Made by a program: the position numbers and the translations under genes
NCBI GenBank assembly: GCA_030531085.1
Contig: JAUNOM010000028.1
Location: 1 to 33,024, forward strand
Reading direction: 5' to 3'
DNA length: 33,024 bases
Source: Prevotellaceae bacterium
GTDB lineage: Bacteria > Bacteroidota > Bacteroidia > Bacteroidales > Bacteroidaceae
Notes under the pieces: model-generated
What the model was told of the DNA's origin: nothing
Database searches by the model: none
What the model saw: only the letters and a program-made list of their open reading frames with translations
Part shown: positions 21,281-23,644 of the stretch, in pieces
How positions within the stretch are numbered: position 1 is the stretch's first letter
How the letters are laid out: every line of letters begins with the position of its first letter

Positions 21281-21490
21281 CTATGTCCGCCTGGTATCAA
21301 TTTCTGTCAGATACCAACTCAATTCGGGACGCAGTGTGTCCCGAATTGGGAAGCAGCAGTAGAATTGGCATATCCTGCGTAGTTCCCGCTCGCCAAAGCC
21401 CTTTCCGAAATCGTATGTCAGGCGTTTGGAAAGTTCCTTTGTCAGATATTTACCGTAGTTCGCGCGTTGTTTTGCGTCCAGCGAGAGCCT
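21281..21490 (-). pseudogene. remnant of a DUF1016 (YhcG-type) nuclease gene
   Basis: Reading the minus strand from 21490 gives 69 sense codons, then TAG at 21283-21281. The text includes Q-R-A-N-Y-G-K-Y-L-T-K-E-L-S-K-R-L, F-G-K-G-F-G-E-R-E-L-R and R-I-C-Q-F-Y-C-C-F-P. This is the conserved end of the DUF1016 N-terminal domain; compare R-A-E-Y-G-K-R-V-I-E-Q, F-G-K-G-Y-S-E-T-T-L-R and R-L-F-Y-Q-T-F-P in the intact gene at 22478. The start is missing (TGA directly upstream) and the nuclease domain is absent apart from an L-S-W-Y beginning. A palindrome (21320-21348) sits at the same linker position as those in the intact gene. Confidence 0.85.
21320..21348. repeat. palindromic element in the DUF1016 remnant
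   Basis: Perfect 11-base arms (21320-21330 and 21338-21348, CAATTCGGGAC and its complement) flank a seven-base centre. On the minus strand it encodes P-I-R-D-T-L-R-P-E-L, just after the F-Y-C-C-F-P end of the N-terminal domain. A second, weaker hairpin (21292-21298 with 21310-21316) adjoins it. Confidence 0.88.
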
Positions 21491-22477: not shown

Positions 22478-23644
22478 ATGACTATAGAAAATGGAAAGAT
22501 AAAGGATATTGTTACAGATATAGATTTTGCTAACGATATTAAACATATCGTGAACTCTGCCAGAGAGTACAGCTACCGTGCAGCAAACTTAATGCAGGTG
22601 GCGTCTAACTGGCTGCTTGGTTGGCGTATTGTGGAGCAGGAACAGCATGGTGAGCGACGGGCAGAATATGGCAAACGTGTGATAGAACAAGCGTCAAAGG
22701 TCTTGACAGAGGAGTTTGGTAAGGGATATAGTGAAACAACATTAAGAGCTTACAGGCTGTTTTACCAGACTTTTCCCAATCTGCAAATTCAGCAGGCGTT
22801 GCCTGCTGAATTCAAAATAGAGTTGGAATCAATTCAGCAGACACTGTCTGCTGAATTGATAAGTGTTGGAAATAATACTACAACAGAGACACAATCGTTG
22901 CCTGTTCAGCTGTCATGGTCGCACTATGAACGCCTTATGCGTGTGAGAGATGCAGAGGCTCGGGAGTGGTATATGAAAGAAGCTGCTCTGGAACAATGGG
23001 ATTATCGTACCCTAAGACGAAATATTGACTCGCAGTATTATTATCGACTTCTGCAAACACCTGATACAAAGAAACACGAAGTGATAGCAGAAATGCAGAC
23101 ATTGACGGCCAACTACCAAAAGGAGAAGGACTCATTTGTAAAGAACCCATTTATTGTAGAGTTTCTGGGACTTAGTCCTAACACCGCTTTCACTGAGACA
23201 AACTTGGAAGAGGCTATCCTTAACCACATAACACGCTTTCTTATGGAAATGGGAAAGGGCTATGCCTTGGTTGCGCGCCAACAGCATATCCATACAGAAG
23301 ACGATGATTATTATATTGATCTTGTGTTCTATAACTATCTGTTGAAATGCTTTGTTCTTGTTGATCTCAAGACAACTAAGGTGTCTTATCAGGATGTTGG
23401 TCAGATGGATATGTATCTTAAGCTGTATGATACGTATAAAAAGACTGATACAGATAATCCAACAATCGGTATTATACTGTGTGCAGAGACAAATACAGAT
23501 GTAGCTCGTTTCTCCTCACTTGCCACAAATAAGCAGATGTATGCAGCAAAGTACTTAACATATATGCCTTCTATTGAGGAGTTGCGAAGGGAAATTGAGC
23601 AGCAGAAAGAGATATATAAATTACAGCATCCCGATGATAAATAA
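22478..23644 (+). CDS. DUF1016 / PDDEXK nuclease family protein (YhcG-type)
   Basis: 388 residues in two domains. Residues 20-100 are the DUF1016 N-terminal domain (W-L-L-G-W-R-I-V-E-Q-E, R-A-E-Y-G-K-R-V, F-G-K-G-Y-S-E-T-T-L-R, F-Y-Q-T-F-P). Residues 141-388 are the PDDEXK nuclease domain, beginning L-S-W-S-H-Y-E-R-L-M-R-V; catalytic candidates are D281 in Y-I-D-L-V-F-Y and the D296-L-K298 pair, where relatives usually have E-L-K. The linker (101-140) is encoded partly by two perfect palindromes. YhcG-type proteins are often found near restriction, toxin and other mobile genes, and their role is unsettled. The GC content is low compared with the core genes, consistent with transfer. Confidence 0.9.
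   Translation: MTIENGKIKDIVTDIDFANDIKHIVNSAREYSYRAANLMQVASNWLLGWRIVEQEQHGERRAEYGKRVIEQASKVLTEEFGKGYSETTLRAYRLFYQTFPNLQIQQALPAEFKIELESIQQTLSAELISVGNNTTTETQSLPVQLSWSHYERLMRVRDAEAREWYMKEAALEQWDYRTLRRNIDSQYYYRLLQTPDTKKHEVIAEMQTLTANYQKEKDSFVKNPFIVEFLGLSPNTAFTETNLEEAILNHITRFLMEMGKGYALVARQQHIHTEDDDYYIDLVFYNYLLKCFVLVDLKTTKVSYQDVGQMDMYLKLYDTYKKTDTDNPTIGIILCAETNTDVARFSSLATNKQMYAAKYLTYMPSIEELRREIEQQKEIYKLQHPDDK
22786..22812. repeat. palindromic element 1 inside the DUF1016 gene
   Basis: Perfect 12-base arms (22786-22797 and 22801-22812, AATTCAGCAGGC and its complement) flank a three-base centre. In frame it encodes I-Q-Q-A-L-P-A-E-F (residues 104-112), right after the conserved F-Y-Q-T-F-P. Confidence 0.95.
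22828..22860. repeat. palindromic element 2 inside the DUF1016 gene
   Basis: Perfect 15-base arms (22828-22842 and 22846-22860) flank a three-base centre. The core AATTCAGCAGAC differs from element 1 by one base. In frame it encodes S-I-Q-Q-T-L-S-A-E-L-I (residues 118-128). Confidence 0.95.

Follow-up and report, generated by a model that had tools for sequence, protein, structure and literature searches.

Why does a nuclease gene carry two perfect DNA palindromes inside its own reading frame? The question is raised by a DUF1016/YhcG nuclease gene in a 33,024-nucleotide stretch of a Prevotellaceae genome (contig JAUNOM010000028.1, positions 1 to 33,024; hereafter the window), which we examined together with a wide sample of its relatives. 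The palindrome is a family-wide feature of DUF1016 genes, and the site and the DNA-reading residues of the gene's own protein change together between relatives, as a chemical code. To judge from these sequence patterns, DUF1016/YhcG nucleases very probably recognise a site inside their own gene. The recognition most likely serves self-restraint through in-gene autorepression, to which we give about an even chance. The overall picture, in which a sequence-specific nuclease binds its own in-gene palindrome for self-restraint and leaves that site uncut or poorly cut, we consider on balance probable. The gene and its two sites are as follows.

22478..23644, plus strand: DUF1016/YhcG nuclease gene encoding protein P0001, 388 amino acids (aa), identified from the open reading frame (ORF), Pfam and PADLOC
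22786..22812: in-gene site 1, 27 bp, perfect 12-bp arms outside a 3-base centre, centre at 22799
22828..22860: in-gene site 2, perfect 33-bp palindrome, centre at 22844, 27-bp core 22831-22857

The in-gene palindromes of the window

Sites 1 and 2 are separated by 15 bases and their centres by 45 bp, with site 2 comprising 16-bp arms around a 1-base centre, equivalent to 15-base arms around a 3-base centre. In the frame of ORF 22478-23644 they encode the peptides IQQALPAEF (site 1) and IQQTLSAEL (site 2). The original prediction, made from the letters of the window alone, had described these twin perfect palindromes, and their coordinates, 15-base spacing and coded peptides are present as claimed. 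It had also placed them between the DUF1016 and PDDEXK domains, which is wrong: the sites correspond to about residues 103-128 of P0001 and lie within DUF1016_N (residues 20-190). According to the structure model, they follow the recognition helix (residues 86-98) and precede the next DNA-contacting helices.

Distribution and anatomy of the site

Homologues were gathered from a scan of genome contigs (best 80 of 584), plasmid and phage records, viral contigs (2, 0, 2 and 3 DUF1016 relatives from four single queries) and whole-genome searches, the genes from the genome sample being part of the matches listed rather than all matches. From 366 matched ORFs, 325 distinct genes were kept, after dropping ORFs shorter than 180 aa, those with unknown residues, duplicates or fragments, ORFs without the two anchor columns, and locus L117. 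Perfect arms of at least 12 bp were present in the linker of 108 of the 325 genes, compared with 0 of 6500 protein-preserving codon shuffles and 4 of 2595 other segments of the same size, and perfect arms of at least 11 bp in 142, compared with 9/6500 shuffles and 6/2595 other segments of the same genes. Palindrome frequency is far above that expected from the codons. When mismatches were allowed, a score of at least 10 was reached by 175/325 linkers, 4/1625 shuffles and 13/2595 other segments, and a score of at least 7 by 292/325 linkers, 151/1625 shuffles and 153/2595 other segments. Genes covering at least 90% of the profile reached the latter score in 267 of 294 cases. Site carriers include Arthrobacter (L122), Rhodococcus (L130), Burkholderia (L119), Glaesserella (L120), Vibrio (L127) and a Wolbachia phage (L129), and Leptolyngbya (L126) has a weak site with a score of 8.

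The site keeps a constant relation to the reading frame. Among the 292 sites scoring at least 7, 269 centre on a single base in first codon position, another 20 have an even centre and share one phase, and 3 fall elsewhere. The consensus of the odd-centred class is AATT, seven variable bases, CA, the centre, TG, seven bases and AATT, with the commonest centre lying 18 bp before the Trp codon of an LSWTH motif (132 genes). The 20 even-centred genes mostly encode peptides like I-W-H-x-R-V-P-N-L. The main phase sets second codon positions opposite third ones, which leaves silent positions free to match their partners, and the third bases of fourfold codons pair with their partner in 1138 of 1267 cases, compared with 346.0 expected from each gene's codon use. 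At least two sites occur in 42/325 linkers. Variable bases are often common to the sites of one gene, at position -3 in 54/56 pairs (0.29 for random genes) and at position -7 in 49/69 (0.42 for random genes). Loci L246, L015 and L028 are among the genes with four or five slightly different sites in an expanded linker.

Domains and predicted fold of the protein

Pfam identified DUF1016_N (1.9e-32, residues 20-190) and YhcG_C (1.2e-50, residues 220-372) in P0001, with PF17761 and PF06250 both above their cut-offs (112.6 and 171.9 bits versus 32.8 and 32.5). PADLOC matched the protein to PDC-S02 (PDLC04807; 2.4e-126), in which we take PDC, from the library name, to mean 'candidate' defence.

23135..23593, plus strand: PD-(D/E)XK nuclease domain, predicted fold nearest EndoMS/NucS

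The catalytic residues D281 and K298 are invariant in the alignments, with D in 302 of 303 and K in 302 of 302 genes covering these columns. The predicted fold of the DNA-binding domain is closest to ParB/Noc. At an E-value of 0.001 Pfam gave only DUF1016_N and YhcG_C in P0001, with no ParBc CTP (cytidine triphosphate)-binding domain, and the structure model has a long helix at the position of the N-terminal ParBc domain. ParB relatives for building a profile were not found among the viral contigs. By sequence, the single protein yielded no solved relatives and the profile gave two ribosomal-protein matches, at E 0.25 or worse.

Covariation between site and protein

The correspondence between residues and bases was examined in 233 genes with odd-centred sites scoring at least 8 and covering more than 75% of the profile, by testing each protein column against each half-site base within strata of overall identity, with columns encoded by the site excluded. 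The best columns were 72 for position -7, 73 for -5, 75 for -8 and -9, 108 for -4 and 133 for -3. Columns 72-76 form the start of the helix-turn-helix recognition helix (GFSxxNLxxMR), and columns 108 and 133 lie in later helices. In the window gene, whose residue numbers were mapped onto the columns from the conserved G83, the corresponding features are as follows.

22733..22771, plus strand: recognition helix, residues 86-98 (structure model and covariation)
22736-22741 and 22745-22750: T87, T88, R90 and A91, equal to columns 72, 73, 75 and 76 and linked to half-site positions -7, -5, -8/-9 and -5/-6
22928..22930, plus strand: codon of E151, column 108, covarying with position -4 (E with G in 22/25 genes; G here)
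23003..23005, plus strand: codon of Y176, column 133, covarying with position -3 (Y with A in 6 genes, G in 7 and T in 1)

The window base at position -3, the partner of Y176, is A in site 2 and G in site 1.

Across the 233 genes, R72 occurs with G in 68/72 and K72 with C in 13/13, N73 with A in 158/184, R76 with C(-5) in 25/28, aromatic Y/W/F75 with T(-8) in 89/90 and E75 with C in 17/17; in the later helices, R/K108 occurs with C in 75/78 and R/K133 with C in 51/59. Most of these links persist in a thinned set of 76 genes less than 60% identical, where R72 accompanies G(-7) in 30/31 genes versus 8/44 others, R/K76 accompanies C(-5) in 9/10 versus 1/63, and R/K108 accompanies C(-4) in 20/21 versus 0/52. 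At column 133 of this set, R/K goes with C (26/30), T/S/A with G (16/17) and V/L/I/F with A/T (21/21), and the E75-C link rests on one gene. Eight column-position links were tested in 106 disjoint close pairs and gave p values from 0.009 to 3e-13. None of 25 control labels, taken from third bases elsewhere, had column 72, 73, 75, 76, 108 or 133 as its best column.

The links also hold in fourfold codons alone, for R72 with G(-7) (74/78 versus 15/104), R/K108 with C(-4) (13/18 versus 2/50), R/K76 with G(+5) (40/43 versus 5/163) and Y/W/F/H75 with A(+8) (98/100 versus 37/115), and are hard to explain by coupling within the protein. Held-out half-sites were predicted from the six columns at 72%, whereas guessing the commonest base gave 49% and copying the nearest relative 55%, when training genes were less than 60% identical; with training genes less than 45% identical, the values were 69%, 43% and 43%. 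Random columns, tried on every third gene, predicted half-sites at a mean of 46% and at best 53%. In one frame (L388; G353:C33) the profile match jumps from column 67 to 166, the DNA-reading part and the site being lost together.

Two alleles of E. coli yhcG

Matches to yhcG were found in 4412 of 5426 E. coli genomes, with at least 80% of the query covered in 3309. At the locus between gltD or yhcF and nanQ, type A alleles (SE11, F2_81) encode SAKNLRQM and carry the site AATTCGCCAGACAGTGTCTGGCGAATT, and type B alleles (EC16, C10, UID2309220003) encode STRNLWQF and carry AATTGTGCAGACACTGTCTGCACAATT. The two alleles differ in helix and main site together: from A to B, K72 is replaced by R72 where C changes to G at -7, and R75 by W75 where G changes to T at -8, both in agreement with the code. 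The difference is concentrated in one block, since F2_81 and EC16 are 92-100% identical in 15 of 16 blocks of 60 bp outside columns 241-420 (83% in the remaining one), whereas identity falls to 60-68% of aligned bases in the three blocks inside. Of the 5426 genomes, 4013 contain a type-A-like block and 618 a type-B-like one, with at least 80% of the block covered in 3385 and 468, respectively; short partial matches are included in the totals of 4013 and 618.

In the type B loci L393 and L401, strains vary at the second site through paired changes (T/A to G/C at -8), and the second-site arms of C10 resemble the type A site. The yhcG of MG1655 (L390, 1968-3095) differs at two nearly invariant tryptophans, one change being common to HNSQ2209, and its first site is imperfect, with 11/12 pairs; from its sequence, the K-12 YhcG protein may be impaired, a point that bears on the choice of strain for study.

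Remnants, flanking sites and mobile DNA

Searching 296 genomes for one site pattern with at most one mismatch gave 19 places in 17 genomes, compared with 0 for a control pattern in the rows listed. Thirteen of these are within listed DUF1016_N matches, and five, including one in the window, are in frames with a DUF1016 profile match. The 19th (L381) has no profile match at E 0.001, and its frame reads as a DUF1016 remnant. The window contains a further trace of the family.

21284..21490, minus strand: remnant of a second DUF1016 gene, its likeness ending just past the LSW motif (profile E 1.7e-12; reading frame)
21321..21347: palindromic site kept in the DUF1016 remnant, with one mismatched pair

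Columns 72 and 75 of this remnant are both R, fitting its site bases G(-7) and G(-8). DUF1016 matches occur in 457 plasmid records, of which 172 are predicted conjugative, and in 15 phage records. One genome (G558, that of L021) has 17 DUF1016_N matches, some partial. L071 and L165 have a near copy of their own site (3 mismatches in 25) 90 and 52 bp upstream of the open frame, respectively, and these copies are possible promoter-side operators.

A proposed function and its alternatives

We propose that DUF1016/YhcG proteins join a ParB/Noc-like helix-turn-helix domain to a PD-(D/E)XK nuclease, and that a presumed two-fold symmetric dimer binds a palindrome of ~27 bp, AATT-N7-CA-n-TG-N7-AATT, at a fixed place in its own coding sequence, flanked by the recognition-helix codons on one side and, on the other, by the codons for the next two helices that contact DNA. 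The variable middle bases would match columns 72, 73, 75, 76, 108 and 133 of the same gene's protein, with lock and key co-inherited on one short stretch of about 190 bp in compact members and 270 bp in the window gene. A freshly made nuclease would then bind its own gene, block RNA polymerase and keep its own level low, its own site being left uncut, or cut poorly. From the computed DNA-level palindrome, its fixed phase and the residue-base code, we infer physical binding, a dimer, autorepression and a lack of cutting at the site. With the nuclease residues conserved, the protein that apparently recognises its own gene should be catalytically competent, and since self-cutting would let silent mutations erase the site, yet the site is kept, we take it to benefit the gene. 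By analogy with the self-repression of I-TevI, the site would most simply be an in-gene operator for a costly nuclease, and its fixed in-frame place may be explained by linkage, the site lying between the codons that read it.

Several results weigh against this proposal. A clear site is lacking in 33 of the 325 genes (score <7), so that homologues without the palindrome, looked for as counter-examples to the original prediction, do exist but are few; the threshold of 7 is itself lenient, given the shuffles that reach it. Foldseek alone gave a ParB match at only E 0.04, and a comparison of profiles with one ParB gave a weak match (probability 12%, E 0.0023). Within the code, the best column for position -6 is 154, with column 76 third, and this position hardly gains from the code (0.68 versus 0.66); the N73-A(-5) link loses significance once the set is thinned (p 0.60). 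Some control labels had z values as high as 9.2 (column 155) or scores as high as 0.48 (column 166), against 0.49 for the best real label, which means that a high score cannot by itself serve as proof. In E. coli, the change from A to B includes C to G at -9, although W75 elsewhere pairs with C (25/26), for which the code offers no explanation; the second site of type B lacks the G(-7) that R72 predicts, all three intact type B alleles carry a second site that does not belong to the B kind, and type A has imperfect second and third sites. Own-type sites in the flanks are rare, at 2/414 flanks versus 4/4111 control scans with at most 3 mismatches (5/414 versus 33/4111 with at most 7); promoter-side sites would be expected more often for pure repression, which leaves room for roles in exclusion or tethering.

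In the first of these roles, allele exclusion akin to homing, the nuclease would cut its own site in incoming mobile elements of the same allele, the resident site being somehow spared. The presence of the gene on plasmids and phages, the almost invariant nuclease residues and four E. coli alleles broken at or near their sites are consistent with such cutting, as is the finding that all 19 places of the pattern search are DUF1016 genes or remnants, the sole targets in that test. The same argument from silent site loss counts against it, however, no mechanism that would spare the resident copy is known, and frame breaks show no clear excess at the linker, with 18 of 76 break ends in columns 68-108 and some loci counted repeatedly. 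We regard exclusion as possible but improbable. A role as tether or sensor appears similarly doubtful: here the nuclease would sit inactive on its own gene and be released in defence when invading DNA or damage disturbs the complex. The PADLOC match to a defence candidate speaks for this, as do neighbouring genes for a CBASS (cyclic oligonucleotide-based antiphage signalling system) cyclase (L121) and for a DNA methyltransferase and a restriction S subunit (L128), but with one or two sites in a cell, few molecules could be held there. Comparably tentative is the idea of a self-addressed gene, whose nuclease would read the in-frame address and tell same-allele DNA from other, for self or kin recognition among mobile elements or for copy control; if true, lock and key would switch as one cassette of ~200 bp, giving many-allele recognition across distant bacteria.

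That the palindromic segment is instead a recombination hot spot, allowing exchange of a specificity cassette between alleles, we consider distinctly unlikely. The E. coli A and B alleles do differ mainly in one block of ~180 bp with the recognition helix and sites, but a hot spot leaves the match of bases to protein residues unexplained, and the exchange is possibly a consequence rather than a function.

A hairpin in the messenger RNA (mRNA) that controls translation or decay is more unlikely still. Perfect inverted repeats would fold in the transcript, and an RNA hairpin is expected to tolerate G.U but not A.C. Mismatched pairs outside the centre comprise 22 G.T and 15 A.C, and those inside it 58 and 50, respectively; with no G-U preference among the mismatches, the signal looks like double-stranded DNA, and this spectrum disfavours the RNA hairpin. 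The usual single-base centre and the match of bases to helix-turn-helix residues are further points against it. The palindrome thus looks, from its sequence, as if it acts as double-stranded DNA. Of the earlier suggestion that the hairpins matter for regulating or recognising the gene, recognition survives, as double-stranded DNA fitting the gene's own product, and the hairpins do not.

Finally, insertion of a dispersed element like the Rickettsia palindromic elements (RPEs), for which the original prediction had proposed the linker as a landing site, or a coincidence of coding, can be dismissed despite the in-frame position and the linkers with two or more sites, because a search of the window's own genome (2.37 Mb, 81% complete) for AATTCAGCAG-N7-CTGCTGAATT with no more than 3 mismatches found only sites 1 and 2, nearly all scored genes share one codon phase (269/292), the sequence tracks the protein by lineage, and the synonymous-codon tests show positions chosen for pairing.

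Comparison with known systems

The ParB-like domain, the palindromic site and possible autorepression are of known kinds; the literature searched offered no precedent for a site that most members carry within their coding sequence and that coevolves with it. Neither a DUF1016/YhcG in-gene site nor a described function for YhcG/DUF1016, a common gene, was seen in that literature, most subscription journals and bioRxiv being outside its coverage, and such a site is absent from the passages of PMC4316617, PMC7383237, PMC11341870 and PMC2988022. If the proposal is true, a member's DNA target could be read from its own gene, making the problem of function directly testable. The family would supply a ready data set on the DNA-recognition code, with hundreds of natural protein-site pairs in one fold, and would stand as a striking example of a protein that evolves with its DNA site inside one reading frame.

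One close likeness is to ParB/Noc (Spo0J), in the predicted DNA-binding fold and in a palindromic site (parS or NBS, the Noc-binding site, in ParB/Noc). In B. subtilis a parS site lies inside spo0J, a placement that our literature search did not confirm. In passages of PMC7383237, the specificity residues of ParB/Noc lie in the recognition and following helices and make R to G and R to C contacts, a placement and chemistry that resemble the DUF1016 code. Unlike ParB/Noc, P0001 has no CTP-binding domain detected by Pfam and has a nuclease domain after the DNA-binding domain; the DUF1016 site is in-gene in most sampled members, is ~27 bp rather than 16, and has highly variable middle bases.

I-TevI, a homing endonuclease and autorepressor, binds its operator with equal affinity and cuts it about 100-fold less, according to passages of PMC2988022. 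As would be the case for DUF1016, for which binding is predicted, it is a sequence-specific nuclease with a binding site in its own DNA; the I-TevI operator overlaps a promoter upstream of the ORF, however, whereas the DUF1016 site sits in the reading frame itself and, even among distant relatives, changes in step with the protein. A homing endonuclease gene interrupts its own cleavage site and spreads to empty sites; in the window gene the site is intact inside the gene. According to passages of PMC4316617, RPEs are selfish elements, roughly 100-150 nt long, that occur at many places. The DUF1016 site shares with them the in-frame position of palindromic DNA within genes, but is ~27 bp and was confined to one gene family in the tests made. 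The lac operator O2 is an intragenic operator, a site in coding sequence that can block transcription. It does not lie in the gene of its regulator, in contrast to the DUF1016 site, which is in its own gene and coevolves with it as one unit.
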